A stretch of DNA of 64,000 nucleotides. It comes from Herbaspirillum sp. 3R11. Its GTDB lineage: Bacteria; Pseudomonadota; Gammaproteobacteria; Burkholderiales; Burkholderiaceae_D. The position numbers were made by a program, and so were the translations under genes. Positions 15,652 to 31,324 of this stretch are shown piece after piece (position 1 is the first letter of the stretch; each line of letters opens with the position of its first letter). The DNA lies in the NCBI RefSeq assembly GCF_004563925.1, contig NZ_SPNJ01000003.1:248001-312000 (forward strand), in the 5' to 3' direction. The notes under the pieces were generated by a model that saw nothing but the letters and a program-made list of their open reading frames with translations, was not told the origin of the DNA and made no database searches.

Positions 15652-16377
15652 ATGCCCCGCTTTTACTGCCCCGACTCCCTGGCCATCGGCATGACGCTGG
15701 CCCTGCCCGACCAGGTCGCGCACCATGTCCAAGTGATCCGGATGCAACTGGGCAATCCGATCACGCTGTTCAACGGCCAGGGCGGCGAATATACGGCGGT
15801 CATCACGCAGATGGAAAAGAAGCGCGTGCACGCCGAGGTCAAGACCTTTTCGCCGCGCGAGGCCGAGCTGTCCTACGCCGTCACGCTGGCGCAGGCGCTG
15901 CCGGAAGCATCCAAAATGGACTGGATCATCGAAAAGGCCATGGAGCTGGGCGTGGCCGCGATCCAGCCGCTGGCGGCGCAACGCTGCGTGGTGCGGCTCA
16001 ACAGCGAGCGTGCCGAGAAGAAGCAGAGCCACTGGCAAGGCATCATCCAGGCCGCGGCCGAACAAAGCGGCCGCAACCGCCTGGCGCATCTGGCCCCGCT
16101 GACCGAATTCACCAGCTGGATCGGCCAGAGCGACCTGCACAAGCGCATCCTGCTGTCGCCACGTGGGGAGCAATCGCTATCCGACTGGGCTCGTCATCAT
16201 CCGGCGCAGGCGCTGAGTCTGGTAATCGGCCCGGAAGGCGGCTTTACCGAAGCCGAAGAAAACCTCGCCTGCGACCAGGGCGCGCTGATGCTGTCAATGG
16301 GCCCGCGCGTGCTGCGCACCGAAACCGCCGGCCTGAGCGCGCTGGCGGCGATCAATGCGATCTGGGGCGAGATGTAG
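15652..16377 (+). CDS. rsmE: 16S rRNA (uracil(1498)-N(3))-methyltransferase
   Basis: RsmE methylates U1498 of 16S rRNA in the 30S subunit. The 241-residue protein starts at MPRFYCPDS. It has the N-terminal PUA-like part (HHVQVIRMQLGNPITLFNGQGGEY) and the C-terminal SPOUT knot with LVIGPEGGFTEAEE and LGPRVLRTETA-type (here MGPRVLRTETAGLSAL) motifs that bind SAM. The ATG at 15652 is chosen because protein similarity begins there; the open frame extends about 105 codons upstream without family features. It stands alone on this strand. Confidence 0.94.
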   Translation: MPRFYCPDSLAIGMTLALPDQVAHHVQVIRMQLGNPITLFNGQGGEYTAVITQMEKKRVHAEVKTFSPREAELSYAVTLAQALPEASKMDWIIEKAMELGVAAIQPLAAQRCVVRLNSERAEKKQSHWQGIIQAAAEQSGRNRLAHLAPLTEFTSWIGQSDLHKRILLSPRGEQSLSDWARHHPAQALSLVIGPEGGFTEAEENLACDQGALMLSMGPRVLRTETAGLSALAAINAIWGEM

Positions 16378-16589
16378 GCAGCCTCCCGGCAAGGCCGCTT
16401 CAGAGAAGTCAGCAGAAACATGAAGAAGCAGGAAAAGCAGTAAACATAGGCATAGAGAGACAAAAGAAGAGATATCTCCACATCCTTCGACAACGCAGTC
16501 AGCGTGCCATCCGTTGCCTCTCCACCCGTTCCGGCAATTCTTTTCCTCCCCTGCCGGATCGTTCCTTCACTTCCTTTCAGGAGAATCTC

Positions 16590-17054
16590 ATGGGCTTACT
16601 CGACAGCGTACTTGGCGCACTCAATAACAATGCAAACGGCAATGCAACCGGCAGCGATCCCAAAGCGGCGTTGATCCAGGCTGTGCTGAGCATGCTTGCC
16701 AACAATCAGTCCGGCGGCTCGGGCGCGCTGGGTGGGCTTGGCGGATTGGGCGGCTTGCTCGGCACCCTGCAAAACGCCGGCCTCGGCCAGATTGTCGACT
16801 CCTGGATCGGCACCGGCCAGAACCAGCCGGTCTCGGGCGATCAGCTGGCGCAAGCGCTAGGCGATGATCAGTTGAGCAGCCTGGCGCAAACGGCAGGCAT
16901 TCCGCAAAGCGATATCGCCGGCCACCTGGCCCAGATTCTTCCCGGCCTGGTTGATCATCTGACGCCAAACGGCCAGGTGCCCGCATCCGGGGGCGATCTC
17001 GGCTCGGAAATCGGCAACCTGCTTGGCGGCTTTCTCGGCGGCAAGTCGGCCTGA
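16590..17054 (+). CDS. YidB-like DUF937 protein
   Basis: A 154-residue DUF937/YidB-type protein. It starts MGLLDSVLGALNN and has the family's glycine-rich middle (repeated GGLGG) followed by the conserved second half, GQNQPVSGDQLAQAL then SDIAGHLAQILPGLVDHLTPNG. No signal peptide is present. The biological role of the family is not established. A strong ribosome site (AGGAGAA) precedes the ATG by seven bases. The downstream gap carries the NtrC-like site and sigma-54 promoter of the next cluster, so this gene is probably a separate unit. Confidence 0.85.
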   Translation: MGLLDSVLGALNNNANGNATGSDPKAALIQAVLSMLANNQSGGSGALGGLGGLGGLLGTLQNAGLGQIVDSWIGTGQNQPVSGDQLAQALGDDQLSSLAQTAGIPQSDIAGHLAQILPGLVDHLTPNGQVPASGGDLGSEIGNLLGGFLGGKSA

Positions 17055-17140
17055 ATCTCGAGCCTGAATCTGGAAATTGTCAAAGGGGCAGTCGCCACGC
17101 CCCACCGCCTTACTAATCATTAGCTGCCTGCATCACCGCC

Positions 17141-17159
17141 TGCACCAAAATCTGGTGCA
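17141..17159 (+). promoter_or_regulatory. NtrC-type enhancer site (perfect palindrome)
   Basis: TGCACCA-N5-TGGTGCA: both 7-bp arms match the established NtrC consensus exactly. It lies about 185 bp upstream of the -24/-12 promoter at 17342-17357, a normal enhancer distance. A much weaker half-like copy (GGCACCA at 17160-17166) follows. This points to induction of the atzF-biuH cluster under nitrogen limitation. Confidence 0.8.
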
Positions 17160-17341
17160 GGCACCAGTTTGGCGTTGCTGAACGCGCCAATCGAACGCAC
17201 TCCCCCGCGTTTCCGATCAAGTCCGTCCTCTTTCCTCCATCAATCTCCCCTCATTGTGGCGCTGGCTGCGATGCCGCCAAACAAGCTGCGGCAAGCGGTT
17301 TCGGCGCCTCCCGTCGTTCTCAGACCGGCCCCAAGATCCGC

Positions 17342-17357
17342 TGGCACGCTATCTGCT
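17342..17357 (+). promoter_or_regulatory. Sigma-54 (RpoN) -24/-12 promoter of the nitrogen cluster
   Basis: TGGCACG followed by five bases and then CTGCT, giving GG (17343-17344) and GC (17355-17356) exactly ten bases apart, as RpoN requires. Only one base of the TTGC box differs from consensus. The expected transcript start is near 17368, just ahead of the atzF start codon. No gene lies in the 17055-17383 interval. Confidence 0.8.
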
Positions 17358-17383
17358 TAATATTTTTCATCTTGTATTCAAGA

Positions 17384-19252
17384 ATGAATATATCTATGTC
17401 AGCAACTACTTTGCCCCAATACGCCTCCTCCGCCTCCTCGAATTCCTCCGCCCCGCAGAGGACCATCGCCGATTTACTGGCCTCCTATCGCACCGGCAGC
17501 CTCAAGCCGAGCAAGCTGATCGGCGACCTGTTGACGCAGATCGAGCAGTCCGACCGCACCGAGGTCTGGATCCATCGCGTGTCCGCCAAGACGCTCAAGC
17601 AACAGGCAGCCGCACTCGACCTGATGCTGCAGATCAAGGGCGAAGCGGTGTTCGACACGCTGCCGCTGTTCGGCATCCCGTTTGCGGTGAAAGACAATAT
17701 CGACGTCGCCGAACTGCCGACCACCGCCGCCTGTCCTGAATTCAGCCATGTGCCGCAAGTCAGCGCCACGGTCGTCGCGCGCTTGCAGAAAGCCGGCGCC
17801 CTGCTGATCGGCAAGACCAATCTCGACCAGTTCGCCACCGGCCTGGTGGGCGTGCGTTCGCCCTACGGCGCGGTGCGCAACGCACTGCAACCCGAATATG
17901 TATCGGGCGGCTCCAGCTCCGGCTCCGCCGTCGCGGTCGCGCTGGGACAAGTCCTGTTCTCGCTGGGCACCGACACCGCCGGCTCGGGACGCGTACCGGC
18001 CGCCTTCAACAACCTGGTCGGCCTCAAGCCGACGCGCGGCCTCCTCAGCAGCAGCGGCATGTTGCCGGCCTGCCGCACGCTCGATTGCATCTCCATCTTT
18101 GCGCACGACGTCGCCGATGCCTGGCGCGTGCTGCAAAGCGCGGCCGGTTTCGATGCATCCGACGCCTACTCGCGCATGCCGGCCATGCTCGGCGTCAAGC
18201 GTCGCGGCTATCGCATCGCCGTACCGGCCAAGCCGGAATTCTATGGCGACGAGCAGGCCCGTATGGCGTTCGAACAAGCGCTGGAAAAAGTCACATCCAT
18301 GCCTGGCGTGAGCATCACACGCATTCCTTTCGACGCCTTCACGGACGCTGCGCAACTGCTCTACCAGGGCCCGTGGGTTGCGGAACGACGCGCCGCGTTG
18401 GGAGATTTCTTCAACACCAATAACGCAGCGATCCATCCGGTGGTCAGGGAGATCACCGCACAAGCCGACAAGTTCGACGCGGTCGACGCCTTCAACGGCC
18501 AATACCGCCTGGCCGAATTGCGCCGCGAAGCTGAGAGCCTGCTGCAAAACACCGACCTGCTGCTGGTGCCCACCACCACCACCATGCCGACCATCGCCGA
18601 GGTGGAGGCCGATCCGATCGTGCGCAATTCGCAGCTCGGCTACTACACCAACTTCGTCAACCTGATGGACATGGCGGCGCTGGCGATTCCCGCCGTGTGG
18701 CGCAAGGACGGCCTGCCCGCCGGGATCACGCTGATCGGCCCAGCCGGGTCCGACCATCTGCTGGCGGAAGCCGGCGCGCAATTCCAACAATTGCTGGGCG
18801 GTGCCGCGCAAGCCGACGCCGTGGCCGCTGCGCCGCTGCCCTTCAACGAAACGACCGTCAAGGTCGGCGTGGTCGGCGCGCACCTGAGCGGCCAGCCGCT
18901 GAACTGGCAATTGCTGGAAGCAGGCGCCCGCCTGCATGCCAGCACCACCACCAGCAAACACTACCGCCTCTACGCGCTCGCCAACACCACACCGGCCAAA
19001 CCGGGCCTTGTCCGCATCAATAGTGCAAATGGAGATGACGGCGCCGCCATCATCACCGAAGTCTGGGAAATGCCGCTGCGCAATTTCGGCAGCTTCGTCG
19101 CCGCGATTCCGGCGCCGCTCGGTATCGGCACGATGGAGCTGGCCGACGGCAGCAGCGTCAAGGGCTTCATCTGCGAACCGGCGGCGCTGGACAACGCGCG
19201 CGACATCACCGGTTACGGCGGCTGGACTGCGTATCTCGCTGCAAAAATCTGA
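17384..19252 (+). CDS. atzF: Allophanate hydrolase
   Basis: Amidase-signature enzyme that hydrolyses allophanate to ammonia and CO2, the last step of biuret and cyanuric acid breakdown. The amidase domain has the Ser-cisSer-Lys triad: Lys in FAVKDNID (near residue 103), cis-Ser in SGGSSSGSA (near 178) and the nucleophile in GTDTAGSGR (near 201). After about residue 480 a separate C-terminal domain (GVVGAHLSGQPLNW to DITGYGGW) is present. That domain is the hallmark of allophanate hydrolases and is thought to help decarboxylation. About 622 residues, normal. No urea carboxylase gene is adjacent, so the allophanate should come from biuret rather than urea. The start is uncertain: ATG codons at 17384 and 17396 are both possible. 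First gene after the sigma-54 promoter. Confidence 0.93.
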   Translation: MNISMSATTLPQYASSASSNSSAPQRTIADLLASYRTGSLKPSKLIGDLLTQIEQSDRTEVWIHRVSAKTLKQQAAALDLMLQIKGEAVFDTLPLFGIPFAVKDNIDVAELPTTAACPEFSHVPQVSATVVARLQKAGALLIGKTNLDQFATGLVGVRSPYGAVRNALQPEYVSGGSSSGSAVAVALGQVLFSLGTDTAGSGRVPAAFNNLVGLKPTRGLLSSSGMLPACRTLDCISIFAHDVADAWRVLQSAAGFDASDAYSRMPAMLGVKRRGYRIAVPAKPEFYGDEQARMAFEQALEKVTSMPGVSITRIPFDAFTDAAQLLYQGPWVAERRAALGDFFNTNNAAIHPVVREITAQADKFDAVDAFNGQYRLAELRREAESLLQNTDLLLVPTTTTMPTIAEVEADPIVRNSQLGYYTNFVNLMDMAALAIPAVWRKDGLPAGITLIGPAGSDHLLAEAGAQFQQLLGGAAQADAVAAAPLPFNETTVKVGVVGAHLSGQPLNWQLLEAGARLHASTTTSKHYRLYALANTTPAKPGLVRINSANGDDGAAIITEVWEMPLRNFGSFVAAIPAPLGIGTMELADGSSVKGFICEPAALDNARDITGYGGWTAYLAAKI

Positions 19253-19297
19253 ACAACCTTCCGACCTTACTTTCCGCCTTCACCTCACGGAGCCAGC

Positions 19298-20347
19298 ATG
19301 AAAAAAACAGCAATCTCTGATACAGAAAACGCATTCGGCACACAGACAGAGGTGAAGGCGGAGTCAGCGCAACGGCGCCGCTTTCTCGGCGTCGCCGGCA
19401 CGGTCGCGACTACGCTGGCACTGGGTGGTGCGCCTGCCATCCTGCGTGCGCAAAGCGTGCCGATCCGGATCGGTTACTGGCCGGTCGCCGCCGGCCTGCC
19501 CTTCTATGCTGCAGTGGAAGACGGCTACTTCAAGGAAGCCGGTCTCGACGTGCAACCGATCAAATTCGCCGGCGCGCAGCAGGTGATGGAAGCCATGCTG
19601 TCGGGACGTGCCGACGGGTCGGCCAACGGCACCGGCGCCGGCAACCTGGCCATCGGTGAGATCGCCCAGCCGGGCCTGTTCAAGATCTTCGCGACCAATC
19701 CGAGCAATGCGCAGTACGTGCTCGACGAGTTCCTGGTACCGAAAGACAGCACCATCAAATCGATCGCCGAACTCAAGGGCAAGAAGGTCGCCTCCGGTCC
19801 CGGCATCCAGAACGTCACGCTGGCCAAGACCGTGCTCGAACGTGCCGGCGCCACCGGAGCGACCGTGATCGAACTGCCGATCGGCCAGCACGTCGCCGCG
19901 CTCGCCGCCGGCCAGGTCGACGCCGTCTACACGCTGGAACCGACCGGCACCATCGGCCGCATGAACAACACCACCCGTGTGCTGGAGGCAGGCGTCATCG
20001 CCAAGTACGTCCTCGGCAATCCGAACGCGCCATGGCATGGCGGTGCGGCGGCGCTGACCACCGAGTTCATCAAGAAGCATCCGGCCGAAGCAAAAAAATA
20101 CATCGCCGCCTACACGCGCGGCATCGAACTGATCCGCAAGACGCCCGACAAGGCGCGTCCTTACCTCAAGGGCTACACCGCCATCGAAGGTTCGCTCACC
20201 AATGAAGTGCCGCTGGCGTCCTACATGCTCTACAACGAGTTCAAGGCCAGCGATGTCGCCTACTTCCAGAAGTTCTACGACCTGTTCGTCGACAAGGGCA
20301 TCTTCGCCTCGCGCGTGATGGTGGATTCACTTCTTTACAAGGGTTGA
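19298..20347 (+). CDS. ABC transporter substrate-binding protein, nitrate/sulfonate/taurine type (NMT1/SsuA-like)
   Basis: A 349-residue periplasmic binding protein of the SsuA/TauA/NMT1 superfamily. A twin-arginine leader (RRRFLGVAGT, then a hydrophobic stretch ending near LRAQS) suggests Tat export. The mature start VPIRIGYWPVAAGLPFYAAVEDGYFKEAG, shown here in part, is the typical opening of this superfamily. It is followed at once by its permease (two bases after the stop) and ATPase. Ligand unknown. The location between allophanate and biuret hydrolase genes argues for a urea-derived or other nitrogen compound rather than a sulfonate, which is inference from context. Confidence 0.88.
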   Translation: MKKTAISDTENAFGTQTEVKAESAQRRRFLGVAGTVATTLALGGAPAILRAQSVPIRIGYWPVAAGLPFYAAVEDGYFKEAGLDVQPIKFAGAQQVMEAMLSGRADGSANGTGAGNLAIGEIAQPGLFKIFATNPSNAQYVLDEFLVPKDSTIKSIAELKGKKVASGPGIQNVTLAKTVLERAGATGATVIELPIGQHVAALAAGQVDAVYTLEPTGTIGRMNNTTRVLEAGVIAKYVLGNPNAPWHGGAAALTTEFIKKHPAEAKKYIAAYTRGIELIRKTPDKARPYLKGYTAIEGSLTNEVPLASYMLYNEFKASDVAYFQKFYDLFVDKGIFASRVMVDSLLYKG

Positions 20348-20349
20348 TC

Positions 20350-21207
20350 ATGGCTGACTCCCTCACTGTTGAAGGTGCCTCGAAGCCGGACACCGCAGGC
20401 GCTGCGGCGGCTGAAATCAAGCCTGTTCCAGTTGTAAAAAAGCGCCGTGCGCTGCCGTCCTTCGGCAAGCTCCTGCCTTTCGTCGGCCCGATCGCCCTGT
20501 TCATCATCTGGGACCTGGTGGTGCGCGCCGGCTGGATCAAGGCGATCCTGCTGCCGACGCCTGCGGCCACACTGATCACGCTGGTCAATGGCCTGGCCGG
20601 CGGCCCGCTGCTGCTGGATTTTCTGGTGACGGTGATGCGCACGCTGGAAGCCTTCCTCATCGCGGCCGTGGTCGGCGTGCCGCTCGGCGTTCTGCTGGGG
20701 AGCAATGAGCGCGCCTATCGCAGTGTGGAGTTCCTGATCGACTTTTTCCGTTCGACGCCATCCTCGGCATTGATCCCGCTGTTCCTGCTGATCTTCGGCG
20801 TGTCGGACATCAACAAGGTCGCCATCGCCGCCTTCGGCGCGCTGTTGATCGTGTTGTTCAACAGTGCCTACGGCGTGCTCAACGCCCGCAAGCAGCGCGT
20901 GATGGCAGCCAAGGTCATGGGCGCCTCACGCTGGCAAATCTTCAAGGACGTGCTGCTGTGGGAAAGCCTGCAACCGACCTTCGTCGGCCTGCGTAGCGCG
21001 GTCTCGATGGCGCTGGTGATCGTGATCGTCGCCGAAATGTTCATCGGCTCCGAAAACGGTCTCGGCCACAAGATCATCGACGCCCAGCAAGTGCTGAACG
21101 TGCGCGAAATGTATGCCGCGATCCTGGCCGCCGGTGCGCTCGGCTATGCGTTGAACGTGGTGTTCATCGTGATTGAAAAACGTATCGTTCACTGGAGCGG
21201 AAGATGA
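20350..21207 (+). CDS. ABC transporter permease, SsuC/TauC-like
   Basis: A 285-residue integral membrane permease with about six hydrophobic helices and a Pro/Ala-rich cytoplasmic N-terminus of about 40 residues. The EAA loop that contacts the ATPase is visible as AAKVMGASRWQIFKDVLLWESL, near residues 190-210. The ATG at 20350 follows the binding protein's stop by two bases. It overlaps the ATPase gene by four bases, so the three genes form one importer. The family is BPD_transp_1 of the nitrate/sulfonate/taurine group. Confidence 0.9.
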   Translation: MADSLTVEGASKPDTAGAAAAEIKPVPVVKKRRALPSFGKLLPFVGPIALFIIWDLVVRAGWIKAILLPTPAATLITLVNGLAGGPLLLDFLVTVMRTLEAFLIAAVVGVPLGVLLGSNERAYRSVEFLIDFFRSTPSSALIPLFLLIFGVSDINKVAIAAFGALLIVLFNSAYGVLNARKQRVMAAKVMGASRWQIFKDVLLWESLQPTFVGLRSAVSMALVIVIVAEMFIGSENGLGHKIIDAQQVLNVREMYAAILAAGALGYALNVVFIVIEKRIVHWSGR

Positions 21208-22049
21208 GCGTCGTCATATCCCCAAAACTGAAGTACGAAGAGCCGGTCATCCCTTTCGTTCCGGGTCCTCCCGGCACCCACATCACGATCCGCGGGCTGA
21301 CCAAATACTTCGCCGGCTGGCCCCTGTACGAGGATTTCAATCTCGACATCCCCAAGGGAAAAATCGTCTCGGTATTCGGCCCCAACGGCTGCGGCAAGTC
21401 GACGCTGATCAACATGATCGCCGGCCTGATTCCGATCGACGCGGGGCAGATCCTGTTCGACGGAAAATCGCTGGCCGACACCAAGATCGGCTACGTCTTC
21501 CAGAACTACCGCGAAGCGATGTTTCCGTGGCTGCGCACCATCGACAACATCGCCTATCCCTTGAAGCTGGAAGGAAAATCCAAGGTCGAGATCAACCGCC
21601 GCGTGGAAGAACTGGTCGCCTCCTTCGACGTCAAGTTCGACCTCAACCGCTATCCGTATGAAATGTCCGGCGGCCAGCAGCAGACCGCTTCCATCATGCG
21701 CGCACTGGCGCCGGGACCGGAGGTGCTGTTCCTCGACGAACCGTTCTCTGCGCTCGACTTCGAGATGACGCTGTTCATCCGCGAAAAGCTGCAGGAAGTC
21801 TTCATGCAGACCGGCACCACCATGATGCTCGTCTCGCACGATCTGGAAGAGGCGGTCTACCTCGCCGACGAGATCCTGCTGCTGACCAAGCGCCCGACCA
21901 AGGTGGCACACATCCTGCATTACGACGATGCCCGCCCGCGCACGGTGGAGACGCTGACGCAGCCGCGCTTCATCGACGCCAAGAAGATGAGCCTGGAGAT
22001 TTTCCAGACCGAAGTACGGCGCGAAGCCACCGCTCAGCCGCCGAAATAA
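21204..22049 (+). CDS. ABC transporter ATPase, SsuB/TauB-like
   Basis: A 281-residue ATPase powering the importer encoded just upstream. Walker A is GPNGCGKST (near residue 65), the Q-loop VFQNYREAMFPWL, the signature MSGGQQQ (near 155), Walker B VLFLDEPFSALD and the switch His LVSHD. The FQN-x-x-x-x-MFPW Q-loop is typical of the nitrate/taurine group. It is translationally coupled to the permease through a 4-base overlap. After its stop, 63 bp without a terminator lead to the BMP binding protein, so transcription probably continues. Confidence 0.92.
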   Translation: MSVVISPKLKYEEPVIPFVPGPPGTHITIRGLTKYFAGWPLYEDFNLDIPKGKIVSVFGPNGCGKSTLINMIAGLIPIDAGQILFDGKSLADTKIGYVFQNYREAMFPWLRTIDNIAYPLKLEGKSKVEINRRVEELVASFDVKFDLNRYPYEMSGGQQQTASIMRALAPGPEVLFLDEPFSALDFEMTLFIREKLQEVFMQTGTTMMLVSHDLEEAVYLADEILLLTKRPTKVAHILHYDDARPRTVETLTQPRFIDAKKMSLEIFQTEVRREATAQPPK

Positions 22050-22112
22050 CACGCTTTTTCAGCATCACTTTGCCAACAACACCACCAACGTTTCCCTTTA
22101 CCGGAGCCAAAG

Positions 22113-23210
22113 ATGAACAACCGTCGTGACTTTCTCAAACTGACCGGCGCCGCCGCGCTGGGCTCGGCATTTCCACTGGACCTGCTGGCTGCCGCACCGC
22201 TGACGGTCGGCTTCATCTATGTCGGCGCGCGCGACGACTTCGGCTACAACCAGTCGCATGCGCAAGCTGCCGCCATCATCAAGAAAATGCCCGGCATCAA
22301 GGTCATCGAGGAAGAGAAAGTGCCGGAAACCGTGGCCGTCCAAAAGACCATGGAAGCCATGATCCAGCAAGACGGCGCATCGCTGATCTTCCCGACTTCG
22401 TTCGGCTACTTTGATCCGCACGTCCTGAAAGTCGCGGAGAAATATCCCAAGGTACGCATCGCCCACTGCGGCGGCCTGTGGACGCAAGGCAAGCATCCGC
22501 TCAACGTCGGCAGCTTCTTCGGCTACATCGAAGAGTGCGAATACCTGTCCGGCGTGGTCGCCGGCCACATGAGCAAATCCAAGAAGCTGGCCTTCATTGC
22601 TGCCAAGCCCATCCCGCAAGTGCTGCGCAATATCAACGCCTTTACGCTGGGCGCGCAGTCGGTTGATCCATCGATCACCACACGGGTGATCTTCACCGGC
22701 GACTGGTCGCTGCCGGTCAAGGAAGCCGAAGCCGCCAACAGCCTGATCGACCAGGGCTGCGACGTCATCACCTGCCACGTCGACGGCCCCAAGGTCATCG
22801 TCGAAACCGCCGAGAAGCGCGGCGTCATGACCTGCGGCTACCACGCCAGCCAGGCTGCGCTCGCGCCCAAGGGCTACCTCACCGGCGCGGAATGGAACTG
22901 GGCCACGCCTTATACCGAGATCGTCAAGGCCACGCTGGAAGGCAAGCCGATGATCAACTTCCTGCGCGGCGGCCTCAAGGACAACTTCGTCAAGATGTCG
23001 CCCTACGGCGCCAACGTCAGTGCCGCCGCGAAGAAGAAGGCCGACGACGTCAAGGCGCAGATGCTGGCCGGCAAGTTCCAGATCTTCAAGGGCCCGATCA
23101 AAGACAACAAGGGTGCAGTCGTGATCCCGGCCGGCACCACGCAAGCGCAGACCGACGTCGCTTTGGAAAAGATGAATTATCTGGTGGCGGGCGTCGTTGG
23201 TCAGGTATGA
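22113..23210 (+). CDS. BMP-family (PnrA-like) ABC transporter substrate-binding protein
   Basis: A 365-residue BMP-family binding protein. In this family, related proteins bind nucleosides or other purine- and urea-like compounds. The leader NRRDFLKLTGAAALG is a textbook twin-arginine signal, so Tat export is expected. The mature part has the BMP opening PLTVGFIYVGARDDFGYNQ, the glycine-rich IFPTSFGYFD and the conserved YLSGVVAGHMSKSKKLAFI. An AAAG-type ribosome site precedes the ATG. Two permeases and an ATPase of the same transporter class follow, interrupted by biuH. The ligand is unknown; biuret, triuret or a ureide is the contextual guess. Confidence 0.9.
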   Translation: MNNRRDFLKLTGAAALGSAFPLDLLAAAPLTVGFIYVGARDDFGYNQSHAQAAAIIKKMPGIKVIEEEKVPETVAVQKTMEAMIQQDGASLIFPTSFGYFDPHVLKVAEKYPKVRIAHCGGLWTQGKHPLNVGSFFGYIEECEYLSGVVAGHMSKSKKLAFIAAKPIPQVLRNINAFTLGAQSVDPSITTRVIFTGDWSLPVKEAEAANSLIDQGCDVITCHVDGPKVIVETAEKRGVMTCGYHASQAALAPKGYLTGAEWNWATPYTEIVKATLEGKPMINFLRGGLKDNFVKMSPYGANVSAAAKKKADDVKAQMLAGKFQIFKGPIKDNKGAVVIPAGTTQAQTDVALEKMNYLVAGVVGQV

Positions 23211-23237
23211 AAACTGCTTAATGCAATGTGAAGCCTG

Positions 23238-23275
23238 GCGCGTTGCGACGACGAGAACATGTCGCCGCAACGCGC
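23238..23275 (+). repeat. Stable hairpin between the BMP binding protein and its permease gene
   Basis: GCGCGTTGCG pairs perfectly with CGCAACGCGC. With the inner bases it makes a stem of about 15 bp with one mismatch and an 8-nt loop. No T-run follows. Such intercistronic stems after binding-protein genes often protect the upstream mRNA, so that the binding protein is made in excess. Confidence 0.6.
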
Positions 23276-23318
23276 TGCCGCCATCCGTTTTTTCGCCATT
23301 CATTGTTCATCAATCGTC

Positions 23319-24461
23319 ATGACCACTTACGACCGCGCGGAAAACAGTGCATTCACCTTACGGCTCAAGGCCCGTGCCGGCATCGCACTGGCGCCGGTAT
23401 TGCCGACGCTGTGCGCGCTGGCCGGCGCACTGCTGCTGTTCGTGTTGTTCCTTCTGGTGCAGGGCAAGCCCGCGACTGAAGCCTGCCTGCTGATTTTCCA
23501 GGGCGCGTTCGGCTCGGCGTTCGCCTGGCAAAATACCTTGCAGCGCGCGGCGCCTTTGCTGTTGACTGCGCTATGCGTGGCGCTGCCGGCGCGCGTCGGC
23601 CTGATCGTCATCGGCGGCGAAGGTGCGCTGGCGATGGGTGGATTGTTTGCTGCGGTACTTCCCTCTTTTTTACCTGCGCTGTCGCCGTGGATCATGCTGC
23701 CTGCCATGGCCGTCATCGCCATGATCGCCGGCGGACTCTGGATCGCGCTGTGCGGCGCCCTGCGTCAATGGCGCGGCGTCAACGAAACGATTTCCAGCCT
23801 GCTGCTTTCCTACATCGCGGTGGCGCTGTTCAAACATCTGGTCGAAGGTCCGCTGCGCGATCCGGCCAGTCTCAACAAGCCGTCGACAGTGCCGCTACCG
23901 GATGCCTATCTGATCAATCCCCTGCCCGGTCTCGATGTGCATTGGGGCCTGGTGTGGGGCGCGCTGGCTTGCGTGGCGGCGTGGATATTCCTGCGCCATA
24001 GCGTGATCGGTTTCGCCATGGCGATTGCCGGCGGCAACGGCCGCACCGCGCGCCTGGTCGGCTTGCCGGTCAATCGCCTGGTCGTCATTGCCTGCGCCAT
24101 GGGCGGCGCTGCCGCAGGTCTGGCCGGCATGTTCGAAGTCACCGCCGTGCATGGCAGCGCCAACAGTGCACTACTGGCAGGCTACGGATTCAGCGGCATT
24201 CTGGTGGCCTTCGCGGCGCGCCAGAATCCACTCGCCATCATCGTCTGCGCAGTCGTCATCGGCGGCGTCGAAGCCAGCGGCAGCCTGCTGCAACGCCGCC
24301 TCGACCTGCCCGACGCCACCACGCTGGTGTTGCAGGGACTGCTGTTCTGCAACCTGCTGGCATGGGAAGCGATCACCGGTCGTCTCGGCGCGCTGAAGAC
24401 GCGCTGGCAGCAGCAGGCGCAACCCTTACCGACCACTGTCGCGGAGACCATCCATGGTTGA
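23319..24461 (+). CDS. ABC transporter permease, BMP/nucleoside type (YufP-like)
   Basis: A 380-residue BPD_transp_2 (branched-chain amino acid/ribose-type) permease with about eight to ten hydrophobic segments. The sequence around VIGGEGALAMGGLF and LRQWRGVNETISSLLLSYIAVALF is typical of the first permease of BMP-linked nucleoside transporters. The ATG at 23319 (MTTYDRAEN) is chosen. An in-frame upstream ATG exists at 23259 but adds a stretch overlapping the hairpin region. It overlaps the next permease by eight bases. Confidence 0.88.
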   Translation: MTTYDRAENSAFTLRLKARAGIALAPVLPTLCALAGALLLFVLFLLVQGKPATEACLLIFQGAFGSAFAWQNTLQRAAPLLLTALCVALPARVGLIVIGGEGALAMGGLFAAVLPSFLPALSPWIMLPAMAVIAMIAGGLWIALCGALRQWRGVNETISSLLLSYIAVALFKHLVEGPLRDPASLNKPSTVPLPDAYLINPLPGLDVHWGLVWGALACVAAWIFLRHSVIGFAMAIAGGNGRTARLVGLPVNRLVVIACAMGGAAAGLAGMFEVTAVHGSANSALLAGYGFSGILVAFAARQNPLAIIVCAVVIGGVEASGSLLQRRLDLPDATTLVLQGLLFCNLLAWEAITGRLGALKTRWQQQAQPLPTTVAETIHG

Positions 24462-25374
24462 TTTCGATTTCACCACGCTGCTGCTGGCCTTGTTCGCCGG
24501 CGCGATCCGCGTCGGGACGCCCTTCCTCTTCGTCAGCCTGGGCGAATGCCTGACTGAAAAAGGCGGCCGTGTGAATCTCGGCCTGGAAGGCATCCTGGTT
24601 TGCGGCGCGATGACCGGATATGCGGTGTCCTTCTTCTCCGGCTCGGCCTGGCTGGGTGTGCTGGCGGCGGGTGTCTCCGGCATGCTGCTCGGCACCTTGC
24701 ACGGGCTGGTGTGTTCGCTGCCGCGCGTCAACGACATCGCCTTCGGCATCGCGCTGATGCTGCTCGGCACCGGCCTCGCCTTCTTCCTCGGCAAGCCGTT
24801 CATCCAGCCGCAGGCGACGATGCTACCGTCGATCGATCTCGGTAGCTGGAGCAGCAATCCGCATCTGCATCACGCGCTGGAAATCAATGCCCTGTTCCTG
24901 ATCGGCGTGCTGTTGGCCGCCGCCTTGCAATGGGGTCTGTCCAGCACCAGCTGGGGCCTGGCGCTGCGTCTGGTCGGCGACCATGCCGAGACCGCGCGCG
25001 CCTTGGGCTATCGCATCAATCTGACGCGCATCATCGCGACGGCCTGCGGCGGTTTTCTGGCAGCGGTGGGCGGCGCCTATCTGTCGCTCTATTACCCCGG
25101 CAGCTGGAATGAAGGCCTGTCCAGCGGACAAGGCCTGATGGCGGTAGCGCTGGTAATTTTTGCGCGCTGGCAGCCGCTGCGTTGCCTGCTGGCGGCGCTG
25201 CTGTTCGGCGCTGCCGGCGCACTCGGCCCGGCCTTGCAGGCGGTCGGCGTGACCTCGGGCTATTACCTGTTCAACGCCGCGCCTTACGCACTGACCTTGC
25301 TGATCATGATCATTACCTGCCGGCCCGACCGCACGCTGTCGAGCGCGCCGGGCGAGCTCAGCCTTACCAGATAA
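24454..25374 (+). CDS. ABC transporter permease, BMP/nucleoside type (YufQ-like)
   Basis: A 306-residue second permease of the BMP-linked transporter. It is highly hydrophobic, with the family motifs GRVNLGLEGILVCGAMTGY near residue 40 and RLVGDHAETARALGYRINL near residue 175 (the ATPase-contact loop). The central FARWQPLRCLLAALLFG segment is also typical. Translation is coupled to the previous permease. The biuH gene begins 17 bases after its stop, with an AGGAGA ribosome site, which puts transport and hydrolysis in one transcript. Confidence 0.88.
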   Translation: MVDFDFTTLLLALFAGAIRVGTPFLFVSLGECLTEKGGRVNLGLEGILVCGAMTGYAVSFFSGSAWLGVLAAGVSGMLLGTLHGLVCSLPRVNDIAFGIALMLLGTGLAFFLGKPFIQPQATMLPSIDLGSWSSNPHLHHALEINALFLIGVLLAAALQWGLSSTSWGLALRLVGDHAETARALGYRINLTRIIATACGGFLAAVGGAYLSLYYPGSWNEGLSSGQGLMAVALVIFARWQPLRCLLAALLFGAAGALGPALQAVGVTSGYYLFNAAPYALTLLIMIITCRPDRTLSSAPGELSLTR

Positions 25375-25390
25375 ATCAGGAGAAACCGAT

Positions 25391-26086
25391 ATGTCCGAAT
25401 TGTTCATCCAGTCCGAACCTTACCCGTGGCCCTACGACGGCGCATTGACGCCGGCCAACACTGCGCTGGTCATCATCGACATGCAGACCGACTTCTGCGG
25501 CATCGGCGGCTACGTCGACAAGATGGGTTATGACCTGTCGCTCACGCGCGCGCCGATCGGGCCGATCAAGAGTGTGCTGAGCGCCATGCGCGCCGGCGGC
25601 TACACCATCATCCATACCCGCGAAGGCCATCGTCCCGACCTGTCCGATCTGCCCGCCAACAAGCGCTGGCGTTCGCGCCGGATCGGCACCAAGGGTGTCG
25701 GCATCGGCGATGACGGCCCCTGCGGCAAGATCCTCGTGCGCGGCGAGCCGGGCTGGGACATCATTCCTGAACTGGCGCCCATCGCCGGTGAAATCATCAT
25801 CGACAAACCCGGCAAGGGCTCGTTCTGCGCCACCGACCTGGAACTGGTGCTGCACACGCGCGGCATCCGCAACCTGATTCTGACCGGCATCACCACCGAC
25901 GTCTGCGTCCACACCACCATGCGTGAAGCCAACGACCGCGGTTTTGAATGCGTGATGCTGGCCGACTGCTGCGGCGCCACCGATCACAACAATCACCTGG
26001 CGGCGCTGTCGATGATCAAGATGCAGGGCGGCGTGTTCGGCGCGGTGTCGGACTCCTCCTCGTTGTTGCAAGCGATCGGAAAATAA
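25391..26086 (+). CDS. biuH: Biuret amidohydrolase (isochorismatase-fold cysteine hydrolase)
   Basis: Hydrolyses biuret to allophanate and ammonia. The 231-residue product is a close match in motif content to characterised biuret hydrolases: the N-terminal PYPWPYDGAL, IIDMQTDFCG, HTREGHRPDLSDLPANKRW and the C-terminal CCGATDHNNHLAA. The Asp-Lys-Cys triad is Asp30 (IIDMQ), Lys139 (IIDKPGKGSF) and Cys172 (TTDVCVHTT). The next gene begins two bases after the stop. Its product should feed AtzF, encoded at the start of the cluster. The cytoplasmic location is inferred from the absence of a signal peptide, so substrate must be imported. The assignment rests on remembered family motifs, not on an alignment run here. 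Confidence 0.88.
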   Translation: MSELFIQSEPYPWPYDGALTPANTALVIIDMQTDFCGIGGYVDKMGYDLSLTRAPIGPIKSVLSAMRAGGYTIIHTREGHRPDLSDLPANKRWRSRRIGTKGVGIGDDGPCGKILVRGEPGWDIIPELAPIAGEIIIDKPGKGSFCATDLELVLHTRGIRNLILTGITTDVCVHTTMREANDRGFECVMLADCCGATDHNNHLAALSMIKMQGGVFGAVSDSSSLLQAIGK

Positions 26087-26088
26087 TC

Positions 26089-27678
26089 ATGCACGCGCTC
26101 GAGCTGGAAGTCATCGGCGCCGGCAAGTCCTTCGGCGAATTCCGCGCGCTGGACGAGGTCTCGATCAAGATCAAGGCCGGCACCATCCATGCGCTGCTGG
26201 GCGAAAACGGCGCGGGAAAAAGTACGCTGGTCAAAGGCCTGGTCGGCTACAGTCCGCTCGACCAGGGCATCATCCAGGCCGATCGCCGCGAGGTGGAAAT
26301 CCGCGGCCCGCGCGTGCCCAACACGCTCGGCATCGGCATGGTGTATCAGCACTTCACGCTGGCGCCGAGTTTGTCCGTGGCCGAGAACCTGCTGCTGGCG
26401 CGCGGCCTCGCACGCTGGCGCATCCACTGGAATCTGGAACGCCAGGCGCTGGAAGAATTCATGGAGGCGATGCCGTTCCGGCTCGACCTCGACCGCCTCA
26501 TCAGCAGCCTGTCCGCCGGCGAAAAACAGAAGCTCGAAATCCTCAAGCAACTCTATCTGCGTCGCCGCCTGCTGATCCTCGACGAGCCGACCTCCGTGCT
26601 CACGCCTCAGGAAGCCGACGAAGTGCTGGGCCTGATGCGCGACCTTACGCGCCGCGAAGAACTGACCGTGTTGATGATCACGCACAAGTTCCACGAAGTC
26701 ACCGCCTACGCCGACGACGTCACGGTGTTGCGCAAGGGACGGCTGGTTGGCAGCGCGGCGGTCGCCGACACCAGCCCGGCCGAACTCGCACACTGGATGA
26801 TGGGACAGGCGCGCGTCGAAAAAGAAATCGTGGCGCGCCCGCCGGTACCTGCCGACGCGCCTGTTGGCCTGAAAGTGGACTCCCTGCTGGTGCTCAACGA
26901 CCGCGGCGTCACCGCCGTCAATACGCTGTCGCTGCAAGTGAAGCGCGGCGAGATCGTTGGTCTGGCCGGCATCTCCGGCAACGGTCAGAAAGAACTGGTG
27001 GAAGCCCTGCTCGGCCAGCGCCGCCGCTTGTCCGGAGAAGTGCAGATCAATGGCGCCGACTATCAGGCCAGCCGTACTGAAATGCGCGAGCGCAAAGTCT
27101 TTGCGTTGCCGGAAGAACCGCTGCGCAACGCCTGCATCGCCGGCATGAACGTCGCCGAAAACATGGCGCTGCGCAATTTCGACGTGGCGCCGTTCCGCCG
27201 CAGCGGCTGGCTGCGCTGGAGCGTCAATCGCGCCGCCATGCGCAAGCAGGCGCAGGCTTTGATTGCCGCCTTCAACGTCAAACCACCGCTGCCGGAACGC
27301 GCCATCGGCACGCTCTCGGGAGGCAACGTGCAACGCGCCGTGCTGGCGCGCGAACTGGGTGATTCCATACGACCGGAAGACGCGGTGAACGTACTGATCG
27401 TCGCCAATCCCGTGTTCGGACTGGACTTCGCCTCGGTGGCCGACATCCATGCGCGTCTGTTGCAGGCGCGCGCGCTGGGTACGGCAATCCTGCTGGTCAG
27501 CGAAGATCTCGATGAATTACTGGAATTGTCCGACCGCATCCTCGTGATGACCGACGGCGCCATCGTGCATGCGACTGATGCGGCCGGCGCCGACCGCGCC
27601 GAATTGGGACGCTGGATGGCCGGGCGCGGTCAACATGCGGAAGCATCAGCACATCATATTCAACTGGAGACCGCATGA
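26089..27678 (+). CDS. ABC transporter ATPase with two cassettes, BMP/nucleoside type (YufO-like)
   Basis: A 529-residue tandem ATPase of the ribose/nucleoside class. The first cassette is complete: Walker [10 protein letters not shown], signature LSAGEKQK, Walker [12 protein letters not shown] and the switch His in MITHKF. The second has the degenerate form usual for this class: GISGNGQKE instead of a Walker A lysine motif, signature LSGGNVQR and [12 protein letters not shown] in place of Walker B. It powers the two BMP-type permeases upstream. It is separated from them by biuH, an unusual insertion of the hydrolase inside the transporter operon. It overlaps the next gene by four bases. A longer open frame upstream overlaps biuH and is not used. 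Confidence 0.9.
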
Positions 27679-28361
27679 TCACCGTCGACGCCATTCCCTA
27701 TCCTTACCAATTCGACAGCCGTCACACGGCGCTGGTGGTGATCGACATGCAGCGCGACTTCGTCGAGGAAGGCGGCTTCGGCAGCGTGCTCGGCAATGAC
27801 GTGCGGCCGCTGACGATCATCGTGCCGACGGTGGCGAAGCTGCTGGCGCTGGCGCGCGAACAGAACATGCTGGTGATACACACGCGCGAGTCGCATTTGC
27901 CGGATCTGTCCGACTGTCCGCCGGCCAAACTCAAGCGCGGCAATCCCACGCTGGGCATCGGCGATGAAGGCCCGATGGGCCGCATACTGGTGCGCGGCGA
28001 ACCGGGCAACCAGATCCTGCCGCTGCTGGCGCCGCAAGACGGCGAACTGGTGATCGACAAACCCGGTAAAGGAGCGTTCTACGCCACCGACCTGCATGCC
28101 CAATTGCAGGCGCGCGGCATCACGCATCTGCTGTTTTCCGGCGTCACGACCGAAGTCTGCGTGCAGACCTCGATGCGCGAGGCCAACGATCGCGGTTACG
28201 AATGCCTGATCGTCGAAGACGCCTGCGCCAGCTATTTCCCCGTCTTCCATCAGGCCACGCTGGCCATGCTGACCGCGCAGGGCGGCATCGTCGGCTGGCA
28301 AGCGCCGCTGTCCGCACTGCAAACCTCATTCAAAGAAACCGCAGGAGAAACCGCATCATGA
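27675..28361 (+). CDS. Isochorismatase-fold cysteine hydrolase, candidate triuret hydrolase (TrtA-like)
   Basis: A 228-residue paralogue of the neighbouring biuret hydrolase. The Asp-Lys-Cys triad is intact: Asp24 (VVIDMQRDF), Lys129 ([10 protein letters not shown]) and Cys162 (TTEVCVQTS). Compared with BiuH it lacks the ADLPANKRWRS-type loop (here [12 protein letters not shown]) and the CCGATDH segment (here [10 protein letters not shown]), so the pocket should differ. Triuret hydrolase TrtA, described from Herbaspirillum, is a BiuH-like protein encoded beside biuH, and this gene fits that description. I cannot prove the substrate; another ureide or a RutB-like ureidoacrylate activity remains possible. 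It overlaps both its neighbours by four bases, so translation is coupled. Confidence 0.72.
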
Positions 28362-28738
28362 ATCCGCAAGTCAACCTGCCGCATATCGTGGAAGAGGTCG
28401 AACAAGCTTTCGCCAACTATGAACACGCCCTGCTGATCCACGACGTGCCCGCGCTGGATCGCTGGTTTTGGTACGACCCGCAGACGGTGCGCTATGGCGT
28501 CGGTGAAATCCTGCTCGGCGGCGAAGCGATCCGCCAATACCGCCAGACCTGCGCGCCGGTGCATCCTTCACGTAAATTGCATCGCACGGTGGTCACGACC
28601 TTCGGCAGCGACTATGCTACTGTCAGCACCGAATTTACCGGTGAGGACTCCGATAAAATCGGCCGCCAGATGCAAACTTGGGTGCGCATGGACGCCGGAT
28701 GGCGTATTGTCGCCGCCCATGTCAGCCTGATGTTGTAA
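28358..28738 (+). CDS. DUF3225 / AtzH-like (SnoaL-fold) protein
   Basis: A 126-residue small alpha+beta protein of the DUF3225 group, which includes HpxZ (oxalurate gene clusters) and AtzH of the cyanuric acid pathway. Readable family features are the N-terminal helix with [16 protein letters not shown], the core [18 protein letters not shown] and the C-terminal [22 protein letters not shown]. The ATG at 28358 overlaps the hydrolase stop by four bases. AtzH has been linked to breakdown of an unstable carboxylated urea intermediate. Here the protein could act on carboxybiuret or allophanate-like products of the two hydrolases; that is inference. An upstream 52-codon extension in the frame is not supported. 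Confidence 0.82.
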
Positions 28739-28781
28739 AGCCGTTGTTCCGATTTCCCTTTTGTATTGACGACGTCCCGCC

Positions 28782-29474
28782 ATGACCGTAACTGCTGCAA
28801 ATCCGCTTGCTGAACAGGTTTACAACCGGCTCAAGGAAGACATCTTCAATTTCCGCCTGCTGCCCGGGGACAACTTCACCGAAACCGAAATGGCGTTGTC
28901 CTACGGCGTCTCGCGTACGCCGCTGCGCGACGCCCTGTTCCGCATGCAGCGTGAAGGCTATCTGGACGTCGGCTTCCGGCGCGGCTGGAAGGTGCGGCCG
29001 ATCGACTTCGATCGTCTCGACAATCTGTATGACTTGCGCATCGTGCTGGAAATGGCCGCGCTGGAACGTCTTTGCCAAAATCCCGACCCATCGCCCGGTT
29101 TGGAAGAATTGAATGCCGTCTGGCTGGTACCGGAAGAAGAACGCGAAAGCGAAGCGGTCAAGGTGGCGGAGCTGGACGAAAGCTTCCACACCAACCTGGT
29201 GGCCGCCGCCGGCAACGAGGAAATGACGCGCATCCACACCGAAGTGACGGAAAAGATCCGCATCGTGCGCCGCCTCGACTTCCTCAAAAAGAACCGCGTA
29301 CTGGCGACCTATGAAGAACACGGCAAGATCCTCAAGCTGATCGCCAAGCGCAAGGCGACCGAGGCGCAGATCCTGCTGCGCGCCCATATCACGCAAAGCA
29401 AGCTGGAAGTGCGCAAGATCACCATCTGGATGCTGGCCGAGGCGCGCCAGGAACAATTGAAAACACTGCCTTAG
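28782..29474 (+). CDS. GntR-family transcriptional regulator (FCD domain, FadR-like)
   Basis: A 230-residue FadR-subfamily repressor/activator. The winged helix-turn-helix spans about residues 8-75 and includes MALSYGVSRTPLRDALFRM then GYLDV. The C-terminal helical FCD domain has the usual effector/metal motif region ESFHTNLVAAAGNEEM and the final HITQSKLEVRK. It is the last gene of the cluster on the same strand, 43 bp after the DUF3225 gene. It is therefore likely to sense a pathway compound and control the cluster locally, on top of the NtrC/RpoN switch. The effector is unknown. It is convergent with the next gene. Confidence 0.88.
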   Translation: MTVTAANPLAEQVYNRLKEDIFNFRLLPGDNFTETEMALSYGVSRTPLRDALFRMQREGYLDVGFRRGWKVRPIDFDRLDNLYDLRIVLEMAALERLCQNPDPSPGLEELNAVWLVPEEERESEAVKVAELDESFHTNLVAAAGNEEMTRIHTEVTEKIRIVRRLDFLKKNRVLATYEEHGKILKLIAKRKATEAQILLRAHITQSKLEVRKITIWMLAEARQEQLKTLP

Positions 29475-29510
29475 CGGCCGGAACAACTCCCTCCGCCGCC
29501 TCGCCCAAGT

Positions 29511-29966
29511 TTACAGACGCAAAGTCATGAACATGCTGTTCGGATCTTCTTCGTAAGTCCCGAACGGACCGCAGTAGACGAAACCCACACTCTCATACAG
29601 TTGCCGGGCCGGTTTGAATGCATCGAACGATCCGGTCTCGAGGCTGAGACGTTCATAGCCGCGCGCCTTGGCCTGCCCGATGATGTACGCCAGCATTGCC
29701 CGGCCGGCGCCTTTGCGCCGCAACGCTTCAGGGGTGCGCATGGATTTGATCTCGCCGTGCACACGATCGAGTTCCTTGAGCGCGCCGCAACCGATCAGTT
29801 GCGCATCCTCCCAAACCGTCCAGAACGTGATGTCCGGGCTGCGCAGCTTGCCGAGATCGAGTGCATGGACGCTTTCGGGAGGCGATATCTCGCGCATATT
29901 GCGCAAATGCTCTTCAAGCAAGGCGTGAATGGCGGGGCGAGAAAGATCGTCGACTTCTATGTGCAT
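29511..29966 (-). CDS. GNAT-family N-acetyltransferase
   Basis: A 151-residue GNAT protein. The acetyl-CoA motif is LRRKGAGRAMLAYIIG and is followed by the usual RLSLETGSFDAFKPARQLYESVGFV. The ending (TYEEDPNSMFMTLRL) matches the YsnE/PaiA-like group that acts on small molecules such as polyamines or auxin-like amides, but no substrate can be named. The ATG at 29966 has an AAGGA ribosome site about nine bases upstream. The frame stays open for 35 further codons, which look noncoding. It stands alone, convergent with the GntR gene. Confidence 0.85.
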   Translation of the reverse strand: MHIEVDDLSRPAIHALLEEHLRNMREISPPESVHALDLGKLRSPDITFWTVWEDAQLIGCGALKELDRVHGEIKSMRTPEALRRKGAGRAMLAYIIGQAKARGYERLSLETGSFDAFKPARQLYESVGFVYCGPFGTYEEDPNSMFMTLRL

Positions 29967-30208
29967 CTCTGCTTCCTTGGGGGTTGGAGTCTGTTGTGCG
30001 AAGTTCTGCGGGATTCGACCATTATGCCCATGGTTGAGCAGGATGGCATTGGCGGCGAACAACATTTCCAATTTGAAATATTTGCAATTTGATCAATTCC
30101 GTTGAAAAACCCACCTCGCCGGCCAGCGCGTTACGGTGGCGCGGCTTCTGCTGCCGCTTGTTTCCCGCCGTTTCGCCGCCAAATCAGGGGTAAGCCTCCG
30201 AAAACATT

Positions 30209-30214
30209 TATAAT
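30209..30214 (+). promoter_or_regulatory. Candidate -10 element of ribF
   Basis: A perfect TATAAT 39 bases before the ribF ATG, without a convincing -35. I saw no FMN-riboswitch (RFN) fold in the roughly 285 bp between the acetyltransferase and ribF. Confidence 0.4.
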
Positions 30215-30252
30215 GGAAGGCTTTTGCAACGGCATCACTTTTAACCTCTTCC

Positions 30253-31230: not shown

Positions 31231-31324
31231 CGCTGGCCCGCCCCGCTCGCCGGCAGTCATTTGCGGCGTCGCTTCTTCCGGCATCAGCCGTCACCGATTT
31301 CCAGAATTTAACTGAAAACAACTT

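Follow-up and report, generated by a model that had tools for sequence, protein, structure and literature searches.

A probable nitrogen-scavenging operon for triuret and biuret in Herbaspirillum sp. 3R11, with candidate sigma-54 and GntR control

Which compounds would the 12-gene cluster at 17384-29474 of a 64,000-nucleotide stretch of Herbaspirillum sp. 3R11 DNA (contig NZ_SPNJ01000003.1, positions 248,001 to 312,000; the whole stretch is referred to as the window herein) serve, and how would its expression be controlled? Analysis of open reading frames (ORFs) and protein families placed all 12 genes on the plus strand, with atzF first and gntR last. We consider it probable that the cluster is an operon for scavenging nitrogen from triuret and biuret under sigma-54 and GntR control, and a route from triuret through biuret and allophanate to ammonia is strongly supported by the predicted proteins. 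Triuret is applied yearly along with urea fertilizer (PMC7948467). The features of the locus are as follows.

17342-17357, + strand: candidate sigma-54 -24/-12 promoter TGGCACGCTATCTGCT, 11/12 match to TGGCACGN4TTGCW
17371-17382, + strand: palindromic operator candidate CTTGTATTCAAG for GntR, at about +4 to +15 of the predicted transcript
17384-19252, + strand: atzF, allophanate hydrolase with C-terminal AH_C (PF01425, PF21986, TIGR02713)
19298-20347, + strand: NMT1/SsuA-like periplasmic binding protein (PF09084; TIGR01728 under its cut-off)
20344-21207, + strand: permease of the NMT1/Tau-type importer (PF00528; TTG start, alternative ATG at 20350)
21204-22049, + strand: ATPase of the NMT1/Tau-type importer (PF00005)
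22113-23210, + strand: BMP/PnrA-type binding protein, AtzT kin (PF02608; pocket YSFQWHD)
23319-24461, + strand: BMP-importer permease 1 (PF02653)
24454-25374, + strand: BMP-importer permease 2 (PF02653)
25391-26086, + strand: biuH, biuret hydrolase (NF050097)
26089-27678, + strand: BMP-importer double ATPase (two ABC_tran stretches; ATG at 26089)
27675-28361, + strand: trtA, triuret hydrolase (TrtA residues at 14/14 sites examined)
28358-28738, + strand: AtzH-like protein (DUF3225), proposed TrtB (PF11533, 191.5 bits; Tyr22 and Arg46 present; Cys66, Gly96)
28782-29474, + strand: gntR/FCD, proposed operon repressor (PF00392, PF07729)

A first-pass annotation, made from the sequence alone, had described a plus-strand block with AtzF, BiuH, a second, BiuH-like hydrolase with an intact triad, an AtzH-like protein, two ATP-binding cassette (ABC) importers and a GntR/FCD regulator, and all of these families were verified in the 12 genes. 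Its description of small gaps or 4-base overlaps was nearly exact: the intergenic distances, 5′ to 3′, are 45, -4, -4, 63, 108, -8, 16, 2, -4, -4 and 43 bases, the two widest of which (63 and 108 bases) lie on both sides of the BMP binding-protein gene. biuH is located inside the BMP-importer gene set, between permease and double ATPase genes.

To assign the two hydrolases, we used the active-site residues common to TrtA and BiuH and those that differ between them, as listed in PMC7948467. The best solved relative of BiuH was Rhizobium BiuH (6azo, E 1.2e-121) and that of TrtA was Herbaspirillum TrtA (6xix, E 7.7e-120); database relatives of TrtA from Herbaspirillum were 97% (P0001) and 89% (P0012) identical. 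Besides the two window proteins, our alignment contained 109 TrtA and 93 BiuH copies with a minimum identity of 60% to the window protein; these came from loci L036-L146 and L179-L197, the duplicates L067, L068 and L082 being excluded. At sites 35/41/160/187/205 (TrtA numbering), all 109 TrtA copies had F/N/E/Y/I and all 93 BiuH copies had Y/Y/D/T/V, while site 134 varied (A 87, M 21 and S 1 in TrtA; S 89, T 2, A 1 and C 1 in BiuH). Window TrtA contains D24, K129, C162 and Q202 together with F35, N41, A134, E160, Y187 and I205. Window BiuH has D, K, C, E, K and Q at the aligned triad (Asp-Lys-Cys) and substrate sites, and Y, Y, S, D, T and V at TrtA sites 35, 41, 134, 160, 187 and 205, which are the BiuH residues at 6/6 discriminating positions. 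Scores against the biuret amidohydrolase model NF050097 (cut-off 370) were 411.8 bits for BiuH, above the cut-off, and 253.6 for TrtA, below it. The alignment with characterized BiuH and TrtA that the first-pass annotation had suggested thus places each window protein in its own residue set, and the assignment of the pair as BiuH and TrtA is strongly supported; the second hydrolase has the intact triad noted before and is, more precisely, a TrtA by its residues. AtzF combines an Amidase domain with C-terminal AH_C and scores 801 bits against TIGR02713 (cut-off 511), as expected for an allophanate hydrolase. Separately, we observed one 348-residue protein (P0059) in which a partial BiuH-like domain is followed by a TrtA-like domain.

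The neighborhood of these genes is conserved. Our survey of the family covered 294 genomes at a TrtA threshold of E 1e-60 and gave 33 matches, one of which (G183, 51% identical) is BiuH-like, leaving 32 genomes with TrtA; within the genus, TrtA was found in 19 of the 27 rows listed, our genome included. The 12 genes were colinear in 16/18 same-genus loci fetched (L036-L053), which argues against a chance arrangement. L047 and L049 have the same cluster without the Tau-type importer, and two further Herbaspirillum loci (L067 and L068) have the same 12-gene order. For a wider view, we assembled 108 trtA loci from the best 80 of 579 loci in a scan of one genome per species plus 31 family loci, less three duplicates. 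Six core genes (binding protein, two permeases, biuH, double ATPase and trtA) lay on one strand in 83/108 of these, and permease, biuH, ATPase and trtA followed one another in this order, not counting other genes, in 85/108. The core occurs in proteobacteria, in Nitrospira (L092, L104 and L118) and in the cyanobacterium Elainella (L135), and atzF, atzH, gntR and the Tau-type genes vary in place around it. Some loci have trtA with no adjoining biuH (for instance, L121, L132, L133 and L140).

From these assignments we propose the following route. The BMP importer (binding protein, two permeases and double ATPase) would take up the planar ureides triuret and biuret. TrtA would convert triuret to 1-carboxybiuret with release of one ammonia, the AtzH-like protein would decarboxylate 1-carboxybiuret to biuret, BiuH would convert biuret to allophanate, and AtzF would yield ammonia and CO2. 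The stepwise hydrolysis to ammonia and CO2 proposed in the first-pass annotation agrees with this sequence-based pathway, except that the carboxybiuret step had been omitted. Carboxybiuret, the TrtA product, has a half-life of ∼20 min (PMC7948467). We set aside cyanuric acid as an upstream substrate on finding no AtzD-family match in the genome, an absence that is not proven since the control also matched nowhere.

The step after TrtA was assigned by examining the AtzH-like protein. AtzH of Pseudomonas sp. ADP is thought to convert 1,3-dicarboxyurea to allophanate; Tyr22 and Arg46 affect its activity, and its docked pocket consists of Tyr22, Arg46, 63, 66, 73 and 96, Phe94, and Gln106 and 108 (PMC6219798). 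The window protein retains these residues except for Arg66 and Arg96, which are Cys and Gly, and neither atzG nor atzE was found among the 12 cluster genes by ORF and family scan. We then sorted AtzH copies by whether atzE lay within 2.5 kb (AtzE-linked); NCBIfam verified AtzE in 5/5 large amidases tested (L055, L060, L094, L112 and L128). This first set excluded our genome's own second copy, the duplicates L067, L068 and L082, and L061, whose contig stops 116 bases short of atzH, at the end where an atzE would be expected. Arg66 was present in 31/31 AtzE-linked copies and in 0/61 AtzE-less copies, nine of them fused to TrtA, making this the best-separating column of the alignment. Residue 66 in the 61 AtzE-less copies was Cys 44, T 3, V 3, L 3, A 2, Q 2, S 2, W 1 and Y 1, and on a tree the window protein clusters with the TrtA-linked AtzE-less copies. 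A clear second switch was seen in Variovorax L116/L119. In these two loci, tauB and atzH have lost the atzGE genes between them, and position 66 of AtzH is occupied by Leu; their tree neighbors have atzGE and Arg66, with inner-node support of 81-93. As a side observation, L061 and L082 are trtA-biuH loci with an Arg66 atzH at the contig end, beyond which the rule predicts atzE.

Sixty loci collected later refined this pattern; they comprise 57 of 69 listed matches plus three others (L253/L277 seem to be a single genome, and L248 is a repeat of L180). Among loci with trtA and/or biuH, Arg66 was found in 18/18 with AtzE and in 0/5 without it, so that the rule holds in 23/23 trtA/biuH-linked loci. 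In loci with neither trtA nor biuH, Arg66 was found in 17/18 with AtzE (the exception, L275, has Cys66) and also in 18/19 without AtzE (the exception, L255, has Leu66), and over all 60 loci the plain link between AtzE and Arg66 is weaker (Fisher p 0.013). These counts suggest that loss of Arg66 tracks the setting of TrtA without AtzE and not the absence of AtzE as such. The two exceptions weigh against our reading of the protein, as do several further observations. In a quick AtzH tree built without column 66, the AtzE label and Arg66 each switch just twice, independent pairs are too few for a sign test, and common ancestry could explain most of the link. The variants of ADP AtzH that were reported as impaired did not include R66A or R66K (PMC6219798), so Arg66 need not decide catalysis; this is the main result against a substrate with a single carboxylate. 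Lastly, the window protein passes the HpxZ (oxalurate catabolism) model NF033625 with 166 bits against a cut-off of 135; we doubt the HpxZ name here because hpxW, hpxX and hpxY are all missing among the 12 cluster genes. Owing to the R66A/R66K results and the tree, we reduced residue 66 from a proven specificity switch to a hypothesis.

Could the AtzH-like protein instead act, like ADP AtzH, on 1,3-dicarboxyurea, which would arise if carboxybiuret, not yet decarboxylated, were attacked by BiuH or by an AtzE encoded outside the cluster? The retained Tyr22 and Arg46, which are needed in AtzH, and the behavior of R66A/R66K would agree with this, but the cluster lacks AtzE, the proposed dicarboxylate-pocket residues Arg66 and Arg96 are replaced, AtzH had no effect on BiuH plus AtzF with biuret (PMC6219798), and the observed fusion partner is TrtA. 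Natural TrtA-AtzH fusions were found in 9 of the 120 TrtA homologues listed (P0052, P0054, P0061, P0067, P0068, P0069, P0071, P0077 and P0100, from precomputed Pfam assignments with P0052 rechecked), all with Cys66/Ala96 in the AtzH half. We therefore think the dicarboxyurea alternative unlikely, and a substrate with one carboxylate rather than two is favored for the window protein. We infer that it is the 1-carboxybiuret decarboxylase TrtB. The original TrtB work reportedly places trtB of a Herbaspirillum next to a cyanuric acid hydrolase gene and describes TrtB as decarboxylating carboxybiuret. PMC7948467 agrees in part with this description, and the AtzH-like gene co-occurs with trtA, as that paper leads one to expect of trtB. 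Weak additional support comes from Nitrospira: the loci L092, L104 and L118 contained no atzH-like gene even at E 1e-8 (L118 ends shortly past trtA), matching the comammox contigs without trtB in PMC12625717. This support is weakened by the same search having returned only a C-terminal piece of atzF, though PMC12625717 reports atzF there. AH_C-only stretches of AtzF, with no full atzF in that search, lie near trtA at L092:10810-11190 and L104:10696-11076 (both Nitrospira) and at L103:9561-9914.

The importers raise two further alternatives. The nearest solved relative of the BMP binding protein is AtzT (6pi5, E 4e-62); guanine and 2-hydroxyatrazine are bound there by Tyr45, Ser97, Phe98, Glu165, Trp194, Asn218 and Asn220 (PMC6834077). 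At these sites the window protein has Y, S, F, Q, W, H and D, that is, Glu165, Asn218 and Asn220 of the purine-binding set are Gln, His and Asp. With its aromatic sandwich retained, the pocket would fit a planar ligand; its altered polar residues speak against a purine. The biuH-linked BMP binding proteins were the same as that of the window at all seven sites in 70/84 copies and had Trp45 in 11; His218-Asp220 was found in 84/84 of them and in 0/3 copies without a biuH link. From the six-gene synteny (83/108), triuret/biuret would be the cargo of the BMP importer. Scores against the NCBIfam models of a putative B6 BMP transporter, 57/135/138/397 bits, lay below the cut-offs of 400/400/465/670. 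Our genome has a second AtzH-like gene (G000:C6:422721-423098; L149:7719-8153) that retains Arg66 and adjoins a branched-chain-type ABC importer and what we take to be an hpxW-like gene. This neighbor, and the guanine binding of AtzT (PMC6834077), would fit natural substrates among similar ureides that arise in purine breakdown or are exuded by plants, with triuret and biuret incidental; with every TrtA residue examined retained in the window, we regard that as unlikely.

The other alternative gives the NMT1/Tau-type importer to triuret and the BMP importer to biuret. A Tau-type binding protein was present in 27/294 family genomes, 24 of which have TrtA (vs 32/294 overall), and the Tau importer lies beside trtA, with no biuH in the stretch, in L055, L056 and L128. 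Against this, many trtA clusters have no Tau-type importer, and loci drawn by their Tau genes irrespective of trtA (19 loci from 18 genomes, among them three family genomes with a Tau binding protein but no TrtA) mostly point elsewhere. In the 11 of these with an ATPase at least 80% identical, the adjoining genes were atzE in 8, atzH in 7, gntR in 9, trtA in 1 (L184) and biuH in 2 (L183 and L184); 9/11 had neither trtA nor biuH, and L185 and L186 had atzF and gntR only. The eight with an ATPase of 64-70% identity had none of these genes except gntR (L193) and biuH (L194). A dedicated Tau-type triuret importer is thus doubtful, and we dropped the claim that this had been shown, its close relatives lying mostly beside atzE and often without trtA or biuH. 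Of the two importers that the first-pass annotation had assigned to triuret and biuret, synteny ties the BMP one to the pathway, whereas relatives of the Tau-type one occur mostly with atzE. Tau-type importers also occur beside guanidine genes, which would suit a guanidine riboswitch; in a scan for riboswitches and other RNA control, no Rfam family reached its gathering score within 14000-31500.

How would these genes be controlled? A 20-locus alignment upstream of atzF revealed two conserved blocks, CTGGCA...TGC and CTTGTATTCAAG, in otherwise diverged DNA. The first is the sigma-54 element at 17342, which matches TGGCACG-N4-TTGCW at 11/12 positions with GG-N10-GC satisfied (0/100 shuffles equal); the published consensus is GGcacg-N4-ttGC (PMC5491218). 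It scored 10-11/12 in 18/18 same-genus loci and 11/12 in L054, and the genome contains a sigma-54 gene. Sigma-70 promoter matches numbered 2, vs 2.7 expected from shuffles, with none upstream of the operon. The second block, the candidate operator, recurs upstream of gntR-bearing clusters across several genera. In the 108 trtA loci (1.92 Mb), its exact pattern gave 34 copies, 18 of them from same-genus loci, and in 34/34 cases a cluster gene followed within 350 bases. Three of four exact control strings had 0 copies and the fourth had 2, neither near cluster genes; with one mismatch allowed, this fourth string gave 41 matches, 27 near cluster genes; operator copies must be among these matches, because the reverse-strand operator differs from the string by one letter. 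In the 5.22 Mb genome, CTTGTATNCAAG occurs once, which proves little since a control string also occurs once, elsewhere. A sigma-54 match of at least 9/12 lies 10-45 bases before 55/57 operators with at most one mismatch (37/39 outside the genus), compared to 22/987 random positions of the same upstream DNA and 4/1140 shuffles. The spacing was 29-31 bases in 31/56 and 22 bases in 10/56, which would put the operator at or shortly past the start site.

Across 127 loci, trtA-drawn and Tau-drawn together, an operator with at most one mismatch was found in 50/78 with gntR vs 7/49 without it (Fisher p 2e-8, uncorrected for relatedness). From this co-occurrence, GntR/FCD would bind CTTGTATTCAAG; palindromes of the TTGTATACAA kind are frequent targets of FCD proteins. 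We read the pair as an AND gate of nitrogen limitation plus GntR derepression. Because the promoter is of the sigma-54 type, transcription, putatively of all 12 genes as one message, would require an enhancer-binding activator, most likely NtrC, and nitrogen shortage, and GntR/FCD on the operator just past the start site would block it until a pathway compound releases GntR. The cyanuric acid operons of strain ADP depend on sigma-54, and nitrogen starvation induces them (PMC6834077). Some observations speak against this scheme: 28/78 gntR loci have no operator at up to one mismatch (some of them lack upstream DNA), the 7/49 loci with an operator have no detected gntR, and growth of Burkholderia cenocepacia on biuret was improved, not impaired, in an ntrC mutant (PMC5491218), so that NtrC should not be taken for granted as the activator. 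Further upstream, overlapping palindromes TGCACCAAAATCTGGTGCA and CTGGTGCAGGCACCAG occupy 17141-17167, ∼200 bases before the predicted start, and within the 20-locus alignment were limited to the window and L036-L039. Their arms, TGCACCA/TGGTGCA, resemble NtrC half-sites; the arms are spaced 2 bases too wide, and we did not use this candidate. The locus start of 17141 given in the first-pass annotation takes in this palindrome, and the proposed promoter begins only at 17342. The cluster is flanked by a small ORF at 16590-17054 upstream and a minus-strand ORF at 29511-30071 downstream. ARAGORN placed a tRNA-His at 14651-14728, antisense within a minus-strand ORF (13355-15349) that we take to be transketolase, and this is probably a false hit.

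Clusters with trtA near atzE (L055, L056, L112, L128, L094, L256, L257, L259, L265, L270 and L276) were also observed; several have atzG- and atzH-like genes, and none but L094 has a close biuH in the stretch. By gene content, a triuret route bypassing free biuret is possible in these. More generally, we see an even chance that two cluster classes with dedicated carboxybiuret fates can be read from sequence, members of both sharing the GntR/FCD-sigma-54 regulon. In one class, AtzEG would deaminate carboxybiuret and an Arg66 AtzH would finish 1,3-dicarboxyurea, with no free biuret formed from triuret. In the other, to which the window would belong, an AtzH relative without Arg66, sometimes as a TrtA-AtzH fusion, would make biuret for BiuH. 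Both would have the operator at the sigma-54 start site, and expression would need nitrogen limitation and a ureide signal.

Parts of this system are already published, namely the pathway and enzymes (for TrtA of Herbaspirillum, in 2020) and, in nitrifiers, a neighboring importer of the BMP type (PMC12625717). The trtA-biuH-atzF genes of Herbaspirillum sp. BH-1 encode the same enzymes, probably in the same operon type judging by genus synteny; the main text of that paper mentions trtB and does not contain 'ABC', 'GntR', 'DUF' or 'fusion' (PMC7948467). It cites a 2019 Master of Science thesis (Tassoulas) with regulation in its title, which may already treat regulation. Nitrosomonadaceae contigs described in 2025 also have biuH, trtA, trtB, atzF and bmpA-nupABC, with gntR in the legend of the synteny figure; a Tau-type importer, a promoter, an operator and the AtzH residues are not treated in the passages of that account consulted here (PMC12625717). 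The atzDGEHF/atzSTUVW genes of Pseudomonas sp. ADP share AtzF, the AtzH family, AtzT, sigma-54 promoters and nitrogen control with the window (PMC6834077), but there AtzD/AtzEG make and use carboxybiuret and AtzR, which responds to cyanuric acid, regulates, in place of TrtA/BiuH and GntR/FCD. In Variovorax and others, atzF, an ABC transporter and atzGEH are followed by ABC transporters and amidases (PMC6219798); these clusters share atzF, an ABC importer and atzH with the window and differ in having atzG-atzE; the AtzE-linked AtzH copies of our first set have Arg66 (31/31) where the window has Cys66. The first-pass annotation had said that the transport-plus-regulation arrangement seems little described, a view that the comparable clusters in PMC12625717 and PMC6219798 contradict. 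Searches of the open-licence literature, in which the items were not each targeted alone, gave no account of the sigma-54/operator pair, the TrtA-AtzH fusions, the residue-66 split or trtA-atzGEH clusters under that name, and a search there for GntR, FCD and TTGTATACAA found nothing.

Taken together, the operator, the BMP pocket signature and the carboxybiuret-route residue would permit triuret and biuret users to be annotated from sequence. The same markers would challenge the 'HpxZ oxalurate' naming of AtzH-like proteins, and they would let transport and regulation, which the enzyme papers left open, be tested.

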